A stretch of 64,000 nt of DNA from Parvicella tangerina (lineage in GTDB: Bacteria; Bacteroidota; Bacteroidia; Flavobacteriales_D; Parvicellaceae). The position numbers were made by a program, and so were the translations under genes. Location: assembly GCF_907165195.1 (NCBI RefSeq), contig NZ_OU015584.1:2170001-2234000 (forward strand), given 5' to 3'. Of the stretch, positions 39,391-49,335 are shown one piece after another. Under the pieces are notes generated by a model. That model had not been told where the DNA came from. It saw nothing but the letters and a program-made list of their open reading frames with translations, and ran no database searches. Each line of letters opens with the position of its first letter. The stretch's first letter is position 1.

Positions 39391-39807
39391 CTACAACTTT
39401 TTTACATCCAACCTGATCGAAGATTCCTCGTAGCAAGTTTCGCCACAATCATCATAAGATTCTTCATTTAGTTTTTTCCCGTCCAAAGCCACTATCGTTT
39501 GACCTCCGTAGTTATAATACGCTTCCACAGCATATCTAGTTCGTGTAGGAACCCAAAAGATCAATTCATCCGTGAAAACCGTATCTGCCCAAATAATTAC
39601 TTCATCCTCAGCGTACCCTTCATAAAGAATGACTGGAATCCCAGGTCCAGAGCCAGGGTAACTTACATCCACGTAAACATAACCACTATCCCAAGGGAAC
39701 GGATAGCAATCAGAAGATGGTACACAATCCGTGTTTGAACTATACTTTGAACACGAAATAACCGTGAACAAAGCTAAAATAAGTATGGTTATACTAACTC
39801 TAAGCAC
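39391..39807 (-). CDS. Small lipoprotein of unknown function
   Basis: 138 residues. Signal sequence MLRVSITILILALFTVISC ends in a lipobox. The mature part starts with several cysteines (CSKYSSNTDCVPSSDC) and a WDSGYVYVDVSYPG beta-strand region, ending with a CGETCYEESS motif. The cysteine number suggests disulfides. No family recognised. It overlaps cdd by 8 bp and abuts the acyltransferase gene, so the three may be one transcript. Confidence 0.45.
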   Translation of the reverse strand: MLRVSITILILALFTVISCSKYSSNTDCVPSSDCYPFPWDSGYVYVDVSYPGSGPGIPVILYEGYAEDEVIIWADTVFTDELIFWVPTRTRYAVEAYYNYGGQTIVALDGKKLNEESYDDCGETCYEESSIRLDVKKL

Positions 39808-40297
39808 CTAAAACCTTTGTATTGAATGATAAAGGTAACAAATCCTTCACAGAGTCAAACACCATAATACTATCTCGTTCTCCTTTCAGAATGACTTGCA
39901 TATCTTCCTTTTGAACCCTTTCATACTCGCTCATAACCTGTCTGCAACCTCCACACGGGGAGATTACTTCAAGAAGGTCTCCTTCTTCAGACTTAGCCAT
40001 GATTGCTATTTTCTTGACCACAGCATCAGGATAATGAGCTTTGCAATAATAAAGTGCCACACGCTCTGCGCACAACGAACTCGGATAAGCAATGTTTTCC
40101 TGATTATTGCCAGTCACAACCTCTCCATTATCCAGTAACAAAGCAGCACCCACATGGAACTTCGAATAAACAGCATACGCATTCTCTAATGCCTCCTCCG
40201 CTTTACTGATCAACATGGCATTTTCTTCAGATAATTCTTCCTTTGAAGCGAATAATTGATAGCTGATATTTATTGTCCTATTTTCCATTATTTTCAT
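39800..40297 (-). CDS. cdd: Cytidine deaminase
   Basis: 165 residues. The zinc site is visible as LCAERVALYYC and PCGGCRQVMSEY, in which the ligand is Cys rather than His (the C-A-E class of small tetrameric deaminases). It converts cytidine and deoxycytidine to uridine and deoxyuridine for pyrimidine salvage. An N-terminal extension of about 20 residues precedes the core (ENAYAVYSKFHVGAALLLDNGEVVTGNNQENIAYPSS). The start may be either the first or the fourth codon (40297 or 40288). All catalytic residues are intact. Confidence 0.92.
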   Translation of the reverse strand: MKIMENRTINISYQLFASKEELSEENAMLISKAEEALENAYAVYSKFHVGAALLLDNGEVVTGNNQENIAYPSSLCAERVALYYCKAHYPDAVVKKIAIMAKSEEGDLLEVISPCGGCRQVMSEYERVQKEDMQVILKGERDSIMVFDSVKDLLPLSFNTKVLGA

Positions 40298-40415
40298 TTA
40301 AAAAGAATCAACCTGAAGGTCGATTACTAAAAAACCAAAGTTAATAAAAGAATTTTAGCGAATGTCAAGCCCTGCGGAACATTCCTATTTTTGTGTAATT
40401 AGGTGTATTAGACGC

Positions 40416-41171
40416 ATGACAACATTAACAGACATATTAGCATCTTTTCAACCCATCTCATTAAAAGATATGGATAGCGTGCAATTAATGAATCGTATAG
40501 ACACCAAGTTCATTCTTTCCATCACTGAGCTCATGCCACTTCTTAATGAGTTAAGTAGTCATTATCAGATATTGGAAATTCGAGGGTTACGAACGGCCAG
40601 ATACAGGAGTCTTTACTTCGACACCCCTGATTATAAACATTACATGCATCATCATAATGGCCACCCAAATCGTTACAAAATTAGGATTAGGCGATATGTT
40701 GATAGTGACCTTTGTTTTTTAGAAGTAAAACACAAGAAAAAAGGAAGAACCGATAAAAACCGTATCCGTATCGAAGATTTTGAACTTGATCTCTCTGAAC
40801 GTTCGATTAACTTCATCAAAGAGATTGTCCCAGAAATAAAAACACTTAGTCCCACACTATGGAATTCGTTTGAGCGGATCACTTTGGTTAGTCCTGAACT
40901 ACAGGAGCGGGTCACTCTTGATTTAGGCCTTCATTTCAAAGAAGATCTTCACAGTCAAAAAGACATAGGTTATGATGACATTGTCATTGCAGAAGTGAAG
41001 CAAGAGCGTGTGAATAGGAACTCCCCGATCATGCGAATGCTAAAAGAAAATAACATTAGAAAAGCTCGTGTGAGCAAATACTGCATCGGCATGGGATTGA
41101 TCAATCCAGCTATTAAGAAAAATAGATTCAAACAAAAGTACCGAATGATCGAAAAGGTCAGAGAACAATAA
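40416..41171 (+). CDS. VTC-domain polyphosphate-polymerase-like protein
   Basis: 251 residues from the ATG at 40416 (MTTLTDILASFQPISL). Typical VTC/CYTH motifs are present: the start DTKFILSITEL, the strand RTARYRSLYFDTPDYKHYMHHHNG, the basic RYKIRIRRYVDSD, FLEVKHKKKGRTDKNR and the acidic metal-binding strand IVIAEVKQERV. In yeast this domain (Vtc4) makes polyphosphate from ATP. In bacteria it is called polyphosphate polymerase domain protein but its product is mostly undetermined. It is followed by a DUF4956 gene, a pairing seen in many bacteria. Confidence 0.8.
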   Translation: MTTLTDILASFQPISLKDMDSVQLMNRIDTKFILSITELMPLLNELSSHYQILEIRGLRTARYRSLYFDTPDYKHYMHHHNGHPNRYKIRIRRYVDSDLCFLEVKHKKKGRTDKNRIRIEDFELDLSERSINFIKEIVPEIKTLSPTLWNSFERITLVSPELQERVTLDLGLHFKEDLHSQKDIGYDDIVIAEVKQERVNRNSPIMRMLKENNIRKARVSKYCIGMGLINPAIKKNRFKQKYRMIEKVREQ

Positions 41172-41182
41172 ACAACACAAAA

Positions 41183-42031
41183 ATGCAACTGAGATTATTA
41201 TTGCTTATACTAGTTTTTATTCCGCTAATTTCCTTTGGCCAGGCCAATAGTGAAACGGAAAGTTTTGAAGATGAGGCTACAGAGGAGACCTTTGACACTA
41301 ACGATGATGCTGAAGAAAAAGACAAGAAGAAGAACAAAGAAAAGGTAGAGGAAGACGAGGAGGAAACCAGTTTTGGAGACCTTACTTTTCAAAAAATAAA
41401 ACTCTACGACAATGATTTTGAGAAGTTATTGCTCAGGTTTTTACTAAACTTAACGTTTACGTTAATCTTGGTTAGAGCTCTTTATTTCCCAACGACCCAG
41501 CGCAAGGATTATCTTTTCTCTTTTATCATTACCAATATCGTGGTATTCATGATCATTTTTGCCATGAAGAAATACGATATCGGTACAGGAATTGGGTTAG
41601 GTTTGTTTGCGGTTTTCGGGATCATCAGATTCAGAACGACAACCATGCCCGTGAGAGAGATGACTTATTTGTTCATGGTTATCGGGATAGCTGTGCTGAA
41701 TGCTTTAGCTTCTAAGAAGTTTAGTTGGGCTGAATTAGCCTTTGCTAACCTAGTCATTGTTGGAGCTACATTTGTCATAGAGAGAATGTGGTTGCTGGAG
41801 CACGAAGCCAAACTGAATGTCACTTATGAAAAAATAGATCTGATTAAACCCGGAAGAATGGATGACCTCTTAGCAGACCTTAACGAACGCACAGGGCTTG
41901 TAATCAACCGTGTGGAAATTGGTAAGATCAACTTTCTTAATGATACTGTTAGGATTTCAATCTACTATTACAAGGATCAGCAAACTTCTCCCATATACAT
42001 GGATGAGAATGATGATTCAGATGGAAACTAA
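41183..42031 (+). CDS. DUF4956 membrane protein
   Basis: 282 residues. A signal peptide (MQLRLLLLILVFIPLISFGQ) precedes a strongly acidic and then Lys-rich stretch (about 25-60, ETESFEDEATEE and EKDKKKNKEK). Three or four membrane helices follow (LLRFLLNLTFTLILVRALYF; LFSFIITNIVVFMIIFAM; GIGLGLFAVFGIIRFR; YLFMVIGIAVLNALA). The motif IIRFRTTTMPVREMTYLF is the DUF4956 core. The C-terminal half is soluble. DUF4956 proteins partner VTC-domain proteins in bacteria, plausibly at the membrane. The gene starts 11 bp after the VTC gene and is followed with no gap by the next one. Confidence 0.8.
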   Translation: MQLRLLLLILVFIPLISFGQANSETESFEDEATEETFDTNDDAEEKDKKKNKEKVEEDEEETSFGDLTFQKIKLYDNDFEKLLLRFLLNLTFTLILVRALYFPTTQRKDYLFSFIITNIVVFMIIFAMKKYDIGTGIGLGLFAVFGIIRFRTTTMPVREMTYLFMVIGIAVLNALASKKFSWAELAFANLVIVGATFVIERMWLLEHEAKLNVTYEKIDLIKPGRMDDLLADLNERTGLVINRVEIGKINFLNDTVRISIYYYKDQQTSPIYMDENDDSDGN

Positions 42032-42643
42032 ATGAAGTATTTTTTACTGACATATCTTTTTTGTCCGTGGATGCTCTACGCGCAAGGCGAATATGAAGCT
42101 GAAGAATTTGTATCTGATCATGATCTCAAATTCGCAGTAAAGCAGATGCAACGAAGTGAGTATATCGGTTCAGCTATTGTTTGTGAGCAAGCTTCTCCTG
42201 ATATCTGCGACAGTATAGAAAGTATAGAATTCGAAGCGTCTAAGGGAGCTTTAAGTCTTCCGATCAAAAGTTTCACTTTTATTAATCACTACTCTATTGA
42301 TACCACTCAACTGATGAGTGCAAAAAATCCTCAAATCAATCGGTTGATTATTGATGCGGCTCCTGGGGCGCAAGTGGATGCCGTTTTTGAAGGAGAAGTG
42401 ACCAGTATTTTTGAAATACCGGGTAACGAACAGGTTATCATGATTAAAAGAGGAGCTTACCGCATGGTATACGGATCGCTCACAAACGTAAATGTGAAAG
42501 TTGGTCAGTGGGTTTCTTCTGGAGAAAAGATTGGAGAAGTTACGGACTATTCGAATGGCAAAATGATCTTTGAGATCTGGAAGACGCAGCAAGGAATTAG
42601 CAAAGCATTAAAAGTAGAAGAATGGATCGAATTGGGGAGTTAG
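42032..42643 (+). CDS. Secreted M23/LytM-like protein lacking catalytic histidines
   Basis: 203 residues with a signal peptide (MKYFLLTYLFCPWMLYAQG). The C-terminal half is an M23 peptidase (LytM) fold: INRLIIDAAPGAQVDAVFEGEVTSI, then VIMIKRGAYRMVYGSLTNVNVKVGQWVSSGEKIGEV, then MIFEIWK. The catalytic HxH and the preceding His have been replaced (RGAY where HG is expected; IFEIW where HFE is expected). The protein is therefore likely a catalytically dead LytM factor, similar to EnvC-type activators of amidases. It sits in the VTC/DUF4956 operon, abutting that gene and overlapping the thioesterase gene by 22 bp. Confidence 0.75.
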   Translation: MKYFLLTYLFCPWMLYAQGEYEAEEFVSDHDLKFAVKQMQRSEYIGSAIVCEQASPDICDSIESIEFEASKGALSLPIKSFTFINHYSIDTTQLMSAKNPQINRLIIDAAPGAQVDAVFEGEVTSIFEIPGNEQVIMIKRGAYRMVYGSLTNVNVKVGQWVSSGEKIGEVTDYSNGKMIFEIWKTQQGISKALKVEEWIELGS

Positions 42644-43062
42644 CACATAAGATCCTAACCACTTATGATCAAAACAACCATTTTGGTCGATTTATGGGTA
42701 TGGATTATGAAGTTATTGAACCGGGACTAGTGCACTATAGCTTGAACATAAAAAAAGAACTTCTAGCTACTCCTACTGCTGCACATGGAGGCGCAATAGC
42801 AGGTTTTATGGATGGCATTGTCGGTGTTTCAGCATTGAGCGCTACGGCTCCAGATGGTAAGGTTGTCAGTACGATTGAATTCAAGATCAACTTTTTGAGA
42901 CCAGCATTGTTTGAAGATCAAGTGAAAGGTATTGGTACCGTTCTAAAAAAAGGCAAGTCTACTTTGGTCGTAAAGGGTGAAATTTTTAACTCCAAAAATG
43001 AATTGGTTGCTACTGCACTGGCAACGTTAAATGCCTACCCTGTGGAAAAGAGTAGCTTTTAG
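42622..43062 (+). CDS. PaaI-family hotdog thioesterase
   Basis: 146 residues. The hotdog fold shows the AAHGGAIAGFMDGIVGVSA helix with the His-Gly-Gly motif and the FLRPALFEDQVKGIGTVLKKGKSTLVVKGEI strands of the PaaI/YdiI family, acyl-CoA thioesterases for medium-chain or aromatic acyl groups. The substrate is unknown. It overlaps the preceding M23-like gene by 22 bp and is the fourth gene of the VTC/DUF4956 operon, possibly linking lipid metabolism to it. Confidence 0.8.
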   Translation: MDRIGELAHKILTTYDQNNHFGRFMGMDYEVIEPGLVHYSLNIKKELLATPTAAHGGAIAGFMDGIVGVSALSATAPDGKVVSTIEFKINFLRPALFEDQVKGIGTVLKKGKSTLVVKGEIFNSKNELVATALATLNAYPVEKSSF

Positions 43063-43067
43063 GTGTA

Positions 43068-43550
43068 TTAATTCATCAATTGTTTGTGCCAGCTATTCTT
43101 TAGCTGCGTTTCCCACTGATCGCGAAATTCTCCAAACGTAGTGATCATGTTGTTAAAGACTATCGTATCAGCAGTTATATTTCCCAACTGAATCTCCTGC
43201 TTGAAGTCGGGCATTTTTTTAACGAGCACTTTAGATGAGCTATTATCGGCTTTATAAGCCAACTGCATACGATCTGTCAGATCGATACCCAACTCCTCTC
43301 CTATCTCTTTTATAAACCTCACCTGAGCATCTTGAGCTCTTCCGCACATATTACCTCCGCAATCGTCTGCTACTACAATCACGAAATGATCATAAGCAAT
43401 ACCAATTTCTCCTTTTACTTTATCCCCATGGCTCTCCCAGGATTTTAAAAACGCTTCCGCACGTTGTAAAAGAAAATCCTTTTGAGACGGAGTAAACTCT
43501 TTTGCCGAAGTATATACCCAAACTTTATCTGATGCTTTAAAACTACTCAT
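43068..43550 (-). CDS. Conserved Bacteroidota protein, often annotated ABC transporter ATPase
   Basis: 160 residues from MSSFKASD (43550); an ATG five codons upstream is less likely. It matches the Bacteroidota family with SKVWVYTSAKEFTPSQKDFLLQRAEAFLKSWESHG, the strand IAYDHFVIVVADDCGG and FIKEIGEELGIDLTDR. It is commonly annotated 'ABC transporter ATPase', but it has no Walker motifs. The biochemical role is unknown. It contains two Cys in DDCGGNMCG. It is a member of the plus/minus boundary after the VTC operon. Confidence 0.6.
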   Translation of the reverse strand: MSSFKASDKVWVYTSAKEFTPSQKDFLLQRAEAFLKSWESHGDKVKGEIGIAYDHFVIVVADDCGGNMCGRAQDAQVRFIKEIGEELGIDLTDRMQLAYKADNSSSKVLVKKMPDFKQEIQLGNITADTIVFNNMITTFGEFRDQWETQLKNSWHKQLMN

Positions 43551-43568
43551 AACACAAAGATACAATAT

Positions 43569-44743: not shown

Positions 44744-45538
44744 TTACAAATCCGCAGCATTAGCGATTAGCTCTGCTACATCCATCACTTGTATATCGTT
44801 CTCCTTTTCAAAGTGTTTAACCCCATCCGTCATCATCGTATTACAGAACGGACATCCTGTAGCTACGAAATTTGGCTTTACCTCCAGAACATCTTCAGTA
44901 CGCTCTACATTGACTTCTTTGTTTCCTTTCTCCGCTTCCTTAAACATTTGAGCACCACCTGCACCACAACACAATCCTTTGGTTTTACATCGTTTCATTT
45001 CAACAAGCTCACTGTCTAATTTGGTTAACACCTCTCTTGGCGCCTCATACACATCATTTGCACGTCCCAAATAACACGGGTCATGAAACGTTATCTTTTT
45101 CCCTTTAAAATCTCCACCTCCAGCTATTTTCAATCGACCTTCTTTTAATAATCCATTGATCAACTGCGTGTGATGGATCACATCATAATTACCACCTAAT
45201 TCTGGATATTCATTCTTAAGGGTATTGAAGCAGTGCGGACAAGCAGTAACGATTTTCTTAATCTCATATCCATTTAAGACCTGGATATTCTGCATAGCCG
45301 CCATCATGAAGTCAAACTCGTTGCCCGCGCGTTTTGCAGGATCACCCGTACATGACTCTTCCGTTCCTAACACAGCGAATTTGATTCCGCAATTATTCAG
45401 TATTTTAACTACAGCTTTTGTGATCTTTTTAGCTCTGTCATCAAAACTTCCAGCACAGCCAACCCAAAAAAGAATCTCTGGGGTTTCTCCGGCCATTGCC
45501 ATTTCTGCTACTGTAGGTACTTTCAATAATTCTGACAT
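44744..45538 (-). CDS. CCG-domain Fe-S protein, HdrB/LutA-like
   Basis: 264 residues from the ATG at 45538 (MSELLKVPTVAEMAMAGETP); an extension upstream to 45616 is unlike the family. Two CCG domains are visible: GCAGSFDDRA with TEESCTGDPAKRAGNEF and CPHCFNTLKNEYPELGG, then HDPCYLGRANDVYEAPREVL with LCCGAGGAQMF and TGCPFCNTMM. These hold an unusual [4Fe-4S] cluster as in heterodisulfide reductase HdrB and lactate oxidase LutA. It acts with the membrane Fe-S protein encoded 84 bp upstream in an electron-transfer complex of unknown donor. Confidence 0.85.
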   Translation of the reverse strand: MSELLKVPTVAEMAMAGETPEILFWVGCAGSFDDRAKKITKAVVKILNNCGIKFAVLGTEESCTGDPAKRAGNEFDFMMAAMQNIQVLNGYEIKKIVTACPHCFNTLKNEYPELGGNYDVIHHTQLINGLLKEGRLKIAGGGDFKGKKITFHDPCYLGRANDVYEAPREVLTKLDSELVEMKRCKTKGLCCGAGGAQMFKEAEKGNKEVNVERTEDVLEVKPNFVATGCPFCNTMMTDGVKHFEKENDIQVMDVAELIANAADL

Positions 45539-45622
45539 AATCTTATTTATTTGACGTTTGACTACTAATGGTTCTGACAAAACAATTACTCGACAAACGA
45601 TGTATTCTTTCATCAACTTAAA

Positions 45623-48177: not shown

Positions 48178-49335
48178 TTAGTTTAATTTTTTTACAGCCT
48201 CACTTACGTTAATCTTCTTCCCGTTTTCATAAGCTACAATAAAAGCGGTATCATAACCTATCTCCTGCACCTCTTTTTGTCTTGCCTTCGCTTCATCAAT
48301 ACTCTTATAATTTCCTACAAAGTATTTATACCACTTACCAGCAGCCACCATTTCAACATCCGTCATCCCTTTGAAGTTTTCAGGCTTCGTGGGTAGATTA
48401 AGACTTGATGTTGCAATCTGCACTTTAAATATAACCCCTGTCTCTTCAATCGTAACGGGTACTACTTCCTCATCTTCTTTTTCTGGAACAGTTATTACTT
48501 CATTCGGATCATCACTCAATCCATCTACTTTTTCTTTGTGCTCCTTGTATGCTACAAACGCATCAAAAAGCTCCGAAGCCAAGCTTTCCTGACCTTCAGA
48601 ACTTGCTAAAAACTTTTCTTCATCCTTATGAGATAGAAAACCTAACTCGACTAATACTGAAGGCATCGTTGCTCGATAGAGCACAACAAAACCAGCTTGT
48701 TTCACACCTCTGTTGTGTCGTTTCAAATCTCCAACACAATTCTTCTGAACATAATCTGCGAAAACTAAAGACTGATCTAAAAACGCATTTTGTCTCATCG
48801 CCAACGCAATATAGGCGTCTGGATCATTTGGATCAAAATCCTCATAAGTACTCTCGTGTCCATCCTCCATGAGAATGGCGTTATTTTCTTTTTTAGCTAC
48901 TTCTAGAGATGCTGCTGATTTATGAAGACCTAAAACCCATGACTCTAATCCTTTTGCCGATTTATTACCTGCTGCATTACAGTGTAAAGAAATAAAGAGA
49001 TCGGCTCCCGCCTTGTTAGCAATCGAAGCTCTGTCCGCAAGACCAATAAATTCATCTTTATCTCTCGTGTAGATCACTTTCACTTCAGGATAAGCTTCCT
49101 TTATTTTCTTCCCTAATAACAGTCCGACTTTCAAGACTACTGTTTTTTCGTAAACATCAGAACCTCCTACAGCTCCGGGATCCTTACCTCCGTGACCAGG
49201 ATCGATCACTACCGTTTTAACTCCCAAACCAGTTTGCGCAAATGAAGCGCCAACAACGAATCCAACCATCAAACAGACAACAAGTCGCTTGAAAATTCGT
49301 TTCTCAGGATAATATTTTACTTTTGCCTTGCTCAT
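48178..49335 (-). CDS. N-acetylmuramoyl-L-alanine amidase with SPOR domain
   Basis: 385 residues. An N-terminal membrane or signal segment (RLVVCLMVGFVVGASFAQ) precedes an Amidase_3 domain: VVIDPGHGGKDPGA with the first zinc His, ISLHCNA with another, and SVLVELGFLSHKDEE with the catalytic Glu. A linker (about 250-295) rich in Glu and Val leads to a C-terminal SPOR domain (VIFKVQIATSSL, WYKYFVGNYKSIDEAKARQKEVQEIGYDTAFIVAY), which binds denuded glycan at the septum. It cleaves the amide between muramic acid and the peptide stem in cell separation. It is divergent from lptD. Confidence 0.9.
   Translation of the reverse strand: MSKAKVKYYPEKRIFKRLVVCLMVGFVVGASFAQTGLGVKTVVIDPGHGGKDPGAVGGSDVYEKTVVLKVGLLLGKKIKEAYPEVKVIYTRDKDEFIGLADRASIANKAGADLFISLHCNAAGNKSAKGLESWVLGLHKSAASLEVAKKENNAILMEDGHESTYEDFDPNDPDAYIALAMRQNAFLDQSLVFADYVQKNCVGDLKRHNRGVKQAGFVVLYRATMPSVLVELGFLSHKDEEKFLASSEGQESLASELFDAFVAYKEHKEKVDGLSDDPNEVITVPEKEDEEVVPVTIEETGVIFKVQIATSSLNLPTKPENFKGMTDVEMVAAGKWYKYFVGNYKSIDEAKARQKEVQEIGYDTAFIVAYENGKKINVSEAVKKLN

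Follow-up and report, generated by a model that had tools for sequence, protein, structure and literature searches.

We found that the VTC-type polymerase and the DUF4956 membrane protein encoded at this locus belong to an old gene pair, which is widespread in bacteria and little studied, and that a gene for a degenerate LytM-like protein has been added behind it within one genus. Our preferred but tentative reading, with a probability of about 0.37, is that the LytM-like protein works in the periplasm as an accessory, confined to the genus, of a module at the membrane that synthesises polyphosphate or another polyanion, the fourth gene being incidental. For work on the role of the VTC-DUF4956 pair in bacteria, the locus provides a small and testable set of genes (Table 1). 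The locus lies within a 64,000-nucleotide stretch of DNA that was analysed as a whole and is referred to here as the window.

Table 1. Features of the VTC-DUF4956 locus (positions in the window)
Feature	Position	Strand	Support
Cytidine deaminase, divergent neighbour of the VTC gene	39800..40297	-	Pfam
VTC-type (triphosphate tunnel) polymerase, 251 aa	40416..41171	+	Pfam VTC, 3.6e-33
DUF4956 membrane protein, 282 aa	41183..42031	+	Pfam, 2.2e-50
LytM-like protein, N-terminal part: probable signal peptide and acidic helical stretch	42032..42229	+	
LytM-like protein, degenerate EnvC-type LytM domain (including stop)	42230..42643	+	Peptidase_M23, 2.2e-12
Hotdog-fold thioesterase (gene 4)	42622..43062	+	Pfam 4HBT, 1.6e-13; TIGR00369 above cut-off

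Organization of the locus

The preliminary description placed four genes on the + strand with spacers of 11, 0 and -22 bases, and both the coordinates and the Pfam families agree with this layout. All four genes exceed the cut-offs of their families (VTC, DUF4956, Peptidase_M23 and 4HBT), and the whole of gene 3 occupies 42032-42643 on the + strand. Judging from the spacing, the genes probably form one transcript. A longer frame starting at 40362 is a possible alternative for the VTC gene. Promoter-like and terminator-like sites were not clearly more frequent than in shuffled sequences (9 versus 7.9 and 3 versus 2.0, respectively). Two origins or roles for the locus were considered and rejected: a plasmid origin, since a plasmid collection gave no match, and anti-phage defence, since none of the four genes had a PADLOC match at E 0.01. 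Nor does the GC content, at 0.38 to 0.40 compared with 0.383 for the window, hint at a foreign source.

We also found a small lipoprotein-like gene at 39391-39807, between the cytidine deaminase gene and a lipid A acyltransferase gene, which has no Pfam match and is also present in the congener G063.

The VTC-DUF4956 pair

The VTC protein scores 115.5 bits against a curated Pfam cut-off of 23, and the DUF4956 protein 171.1 bits against the PF16316 cut-off of 30.6. Among 100 genomes of the order that were searched, including the host genome, DUF4956 is found in 85 and VTC in 81. We read the neighbourhoods of 41 order-level loci and 40 class-level loci selected by hand from the search matches, of which 38 and 37, respectively, carry a DUF4956 gene call; the host genome accounts for two of the 38. 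VTC immediately precedes DUF4956 in the same orientation in 35 of the 38 order-level loci and in 33 of the 37 further loci of the class, counts in which neighbours may fall across contig ends because many genomes are fragmented. The six loci left out for want of a DUF4956 call (L080, L084 and L099 in the order; L154, L155 and L183 in the class) were searched with tblastn, and in five of them VTC stands beside a DUF4956 that the gene caller had missed; L084 has VTC alone. The pairing reported in the preliminary description is thus real.

A neighbourhood of the order pdhA-cdd-VTC-DUF4956-porV-porU, in which pdhA stands for the pyruvate dehydrogenase genes, cdd encodes cytidine deaminase and porV and porU are type IX secretion genes, recurs in many relatives of the family and order. 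The window retains the deaminase side of it, and the downstream genes include a frame at 43068-43565 that has no Pfam family and a CCG-domain gene at 44744-45616, neither of which is porV or porU by Pfam. The host genome carries a second VTC-DUF4956 copy (L062:7101-9628, at about 1129100-1131627 of G000:C1), in the order EF-hand, VTC, DUF4956, DUF2490. It also encodes a gene of the PPK1 family, so that the VTC enzyme would not be needed for ordinary polyphosphate.

Two further observations concern the surroundings of VTC genes. In the congener G063 (L084:1-1400), VTC is next to the deaminase gene, and the expected place of DUF4956 is taken by a short-chain dehydrogenase-like frame with an odd end at the contig end. 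Upstream of VTC, several loci of the class encode a pair of small proteins, probably secreted, with lengths of about 135 and 170-195 aa (L161:4925-5930, L164:4853-5853 and L181:4857-5784); the larger of them looks repetitive, and the one in L164 has no Pfam match.

With regard to the enzyme itself, the tunnel residues K31, R90, R92, E193 and K221 are invariant in 32 aligned rows. A profile of 32 relatives gave a weak match to yeast Vtc4 (E 0.0014) in which the R-x-R pair is aligned and the reported stretch is the N-terminal half; E193, which lies beyond the reach of this alignment, would correspond to Vtc4 E426. In yeast, the R264A/R266A/E426N form of Vtc4, changed at this R-x-R pair and at E426, has been used for inactivation (PMC9911596). 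The conserved tunnel is consistent with polymerase activity of the window protein.

The DUF4956 protein is built of an N-terminal hydrophobic helix, an acidic linker, five further long helices and a small alpha-beta C-terminal domain (AlphaFold2 mean pLDDT 78), its signal peptide having been judged by eye. Foldseek returned no PDB fold for it at or below 0.001, and the best VIA-align comparison reached Z 5.3, over unrelated folds and with mainly the C-terminal domain compared. No tested function of DUF4956 was found in the passages available from the literature searched for this family.

The arrangement of a tunnel polymerase beside a membrane part resembles that of the yeast VTC complex (Vtc1/3/4), in which the exit of the Vtc4 tunnel faces a transmembrane channel (PMC9911596). 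It differs from the yeast complex in that Pfam finds no SPX domain and the sequence match is weak; a relationship between DUF4956 and Vtc1 would be conjectural, and a channel function for DUF4956 is a guess.

The LytM-like protein

Gene 3 was initially described as encoding an M23-like protein whose catalytic histidines are replaced, and the zinc-site residues are indeed replaced: all three M23 zinc ligands are lost both in the window protein and in its orthologue from a congener. The histidine before G-x-Y is lost in the window protein and kept in the congener. The protein has 203 aa, of which about 48 separate the likely signal from the LytM domain, and it corresponds in alignments to the LytM end of EnvC-type relatives. 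Its N-terminus, judged by eye, carries a probable signal peptide, and the protein is probably secreted. Foldseek ranks the LytM structures of EnvC, Csd1-Csd2 and DipM first, with E values of 2e-7 to 7e-7 for 4bh5, 8c0j and 7qrl. From the sequence and the predicted fold, gene 3 is assigned as a probably secreted, stand-alone and catalytically dead LytM domain of the EnvC type with its zinc site lost, which upholds the earlier identification as a dead LytM protein.

In the AlphaFold2 model the LytM part is mostly above pLDDT 90, except for a loop at 89-100 that is below 50. Within the N-terminal part, a helix at 29-53 has low confidence and one at 56-68 has rising confidence. This part, residues 19-66, has 27 of 48 aligned residues identical to those of the congener, and two cysteines are common to both proteins.

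Matches to the LytM-like protein at E 0.001 or better occur in 99 of the 100 order genomes, mostly in open reading frames some 400 to 500 aa long; the full-length EnvC of the host has 400 aa. The NCBIfam EnvC model does not discriminate between them, since against its cut-off of 270 bits the LytM-like protein scores 16.8 and the host EnvC 43.5. A recent copy of the host EnvC is a doubtful source of the gene: both short proteins cluster with each other and outside the EnvC clade of the genus, though on a long branch. The first zinc-site histidine is an asparagine in 30 of 33 EnvC proteins of relatives and a histidine in none of them; the aspartate is kept in 32/33 and the last histidine in 33/33. 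In the EnvC of these relatives, including L064:4708-5910, two M23 zinc ligands out of three are thus retained, which is not the case in E. coli EnvC.

A clear orthologue of the LytM-like gene is found in only two of 399 order genomes (scan at 1e-22), namely the window genome and G109, one of its three congeners, whose protein is 54% identical. There, the order is deaminase (reverse), VTC, DUF4956, LytM and DUF4159, and the LytM gene overlaps DUF4956 by 8 bases. Between the two species the LytM proteins are 54% identical, compared with 52% for VTC, 58% for DUF4956, 75% for the deaminase and 64% for EnvC. Within the genus (n=4), both genomes that have DUF4956 carry the LytM-like gene, and the two that lack a DUF4956 match do not; its absence there is weak evidence, since one of these congeners keeps VTC with the next frame running off the contig end and the other is 82% complete. 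A LytM profile matched the called genes of 81 neighbourhoods in the window and in G109 alone. In searches of genome contigs, none of 113 pattern matches of the window protein encodes a relative, and the congener protein gave two loci, the congener itself and a 39-residue match in another bacterium. The LytM-like gene is a minor, genus-level addition and no general part of the VTC-DUF4956 operon.

A scan of the same class for LytM at 1e-10 matched 205 of 295 genomes; short forms were judged among the matches listed, so some may be missed. Two loci in other families (L065:8987-9511 and L141:3695-4204) encode short LytM proteins that are degenerate, stand alone and are probably secreted; neither VTC nor DUF4956 lies in the surrounding 18 kb and 12 kb, respectively. 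They may represent a recurring kind of stray LytM domain that has escaped notice.

A proposed membrane module with a periplasmic accessory

We suggest that the two proteins of the pair constitute a module at the membrane, in which the cytosolic VTC tunnel enzyme would polymerise phosphate or make a related polyanion. DUF4956 would hold the enzyme at the inner membrane and perhaps pass its product through, comparable with the Vtc4 tunnel and channel of yeast. In this genus, a dead stand-alone LytM domain has been added immediately downstream, in a slot that is often filled by DUF2490 in relatives, and would most likely act as a periplasmic, non-enzymatic docking protein for the module, its partner being other than the amidase of EnvC; the thioesterase would play no part. 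Gene order, protein families, the lost zinc site and the distribution among the sampled genomes are observed; polymerase activity, the role of DUF4956, the secretion and the docking function are inferred. The module is supported by the adjacency of VTC and DUF4956, by the invariant tunnel residues, by the place of the LytM gene being kept in G109, where the gene has diverged about as far as VTC and DUF4956, by its occurrence alongside DUF4956 within the genus, by the agreement of the two orthologues in the groove and by the exported look of partners at other loci. On the other hand, the LytM gene occurs in two genomes only, and its tie to the module may be due to chance; moreover, the second VTC-DUF4956 copy of the host has no LytM gene.

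This leads to a competing explanation that we consider somewhat unlikely, namely that a single ancestor acquired the LytM gene behind DUF4956 and that the gene is merely co-transcribed. Its restriction to the genus (2/399) fits such chance neighbours, as do the related short dead LytM genes that lie elsewhere (L065 and L141) without VTC or DUF4956 around them, and the thioesterase is evidence that the site takes in genes. Against it, position and close spacing of the LytM gene are the same in both species, although their VTC proteins have diverged at nearly half of their residues.

Comparison with amidase activators

In a sharpened form of the idea raised in the preliminary description, the LytM-like protein could instead be an EnvC-like amidase activator freed from FtsEX control, which would couple expression of VTC-DUF4956 to cleavage of the cell wall. 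We regard this as unlikely. The LytM domain of EnvC, a murein hydrolase activator (4bh5, 8c0j and 6tpi), resembles the predicted fold of gene 3 and also has a degenerate M23 site, and there is a precedent in E. coli, where the EnvC LytM domain by itself binds AmiB and its expression is toxic, far more so than that of forms that include the restraining arm (PMC7668044). A candidate partner is encoded at 48178-49335, by an amidase gene whose product can be aligned over the regulatory stretch with AmiA, AmiB and AmiC; the host genome has a second Amidase_3 protein (G000:C1:1369809-1370345). The long FtsX-binding coiled coil of EnvC is missing from the gene 3 protein, and a restraining arm is not clear, the helix predicted at 29-53 being of low confidence. 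Loss of the coiled coil is what would allow escape from FtsEX control, but it also sets the protein apart from EnvC, and the same genome carries a full-length EnvC.

The groove of the LytM domain was compared at 12 positions. Y366 of E. coli EnvC, which we take to belong to the groove, was counted as the twelfth. The other 11 positions are those given in PMC10336132. The window protein agrees with the congener at 8/12 positions, with the host EnvC at 4/12 and with 33 EnvC proteins at 2 to 7 of 12, while for the host EnvC and its 32 relatives the agreement is 5 to 10 of 12. The groove varies even among true EnvC proteins, as that of the host and that of E. coli are alike at only 3/12, and a mismatch alone is no disproof of the activator role. 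At 8/12 positions the residue of the window protein is also present among the 33 EnvC. However, at E. coli positions 315, 317, 324 and 401 it has residues found in 0/33 EnvC, and three of these positions are conserved: 315, 324 and 401 are His, Asp and His in 33/33, 32/33 and 33/33 EnvC, respectively, and Thr, Ile and Ile in the window protein. Positions 320 and 322 are likewise changed. Charge also argues against the activator role, since the regulatory stretch of the amidase is acidic (-8) and the LytM part of gene 3, unlike that of most EnvC, is not basic; its net charge is -2 in the window protein and 0 in the congener, whereas the LytM domains of 31 of the 33 EnvC are positive and two are not.

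Taken together, the groove and charge comparisons lend moderate support to a groove that has been retained for some partner besides the amidase, as in the docking role of the preferred reading. The DipM protein of Caulobacter offers a parallel, as the groove of its dead LytM domain (7qrl), which has a fold like that predicted for gene 3, is a docking site for several wall enzymes (PMC10336132). It is a distant one, with 22% identity over the Foldseek match, and gene 3 has no further Pfam domain, unlike DipM.

The slot downstream of DUF4956

The gene that follows DUF4956 shares its orientation in 32 of the 37 class-level loci and in 16 of the 38 order-level loci, and is DUF2490 in 22/37 and 5/38, respectively, which is probably an undercount as it rests on one BLAST query at 1e-5. 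The window differs from the VTC-DUF4956-DUF2490 gene set of relatives in that the LytM gene stands in the place of DUF2490, as it also does at L107. DUF2490 proteins are probably outer-membrane barrels, as weak Pfam side hits hint. Other companions of the pair are a CotH protein with a type IX (T9SS) sorting tail at one locus and EF-hand proteins at two loci. In Bacteroides thetaiotaomicron, BT3498 (DUF4956) and BT3499 (DUF2490) appear together in an iron-response table (PMC10434189). According to the passages available from PMC7112168, Gram-positive pel clusters hold CotH, a gene of the polyphosphate polymerase type and DUF4956 contiguously. The window shares the contiguity of the last two, but its four genes include no CotH and the third is LytM-like.

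Across the class, the companions of the pair are mostly of exported types, and this recurrence, along with the LytM domain that one genus has in that slot, directs attention to the envelope. A broader form of the module is conceivable, in which VTC-DUF4956 would be the core of a polyanion synthase and exporter with an exchangeable periplasmic or outer-membrane partner (DUF2490, CotH, EF-hand or LytM). The LytM domain would then be a re-purposed fold of wall enzymes, with a former amidase groove that would now dock the exporter, or else a partner in the wall or outer membrane, and no longer an amidase. In this general form we consider the proposal quite unlikely.

The thioesterase gene

Gene 4 had been labelled a PaaI thioesterase, a label that proved too specific: it scores above the cut-off of TIGR00369, a general model of hotdog thioesterases (66.4 bits against 36.6), and falls below the PaaD model for PaaI (30.6 bits against 118.9). 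It had also been counted as one of four members of a single system, which we rejected on the distribution of the thioesterase and LytM genes. It is very improbable that all four genes act together, with the thioesterase cleaving an acyl group from some product of the envelope: the 22-base overlap between genes 3 and 4 speaks for this, whereas such a thioesterase lies within five genes of DUF4956 in 0 of the 37 class-level loci and in one of the 38 order-level loci, the window itself, DUF4159 follows the LytM gene at the thioesterase position in G109, and the nearest relative (63%, in G081) is placed elsewhere in a genome with no VTC match. Co-conservation with VTC-DUF4956 thus fails for gene 4, and for gene 3 it holds within the genus (G109) and fails beyond it. 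Relatives of the thioesterase are present in 57 of the 100 order genomes, in three of them about 22 kb from the pair on the same contig; with places compared by eye, only that of the window adjoins the pair, and gene 4 is probably an incidental neighbour.
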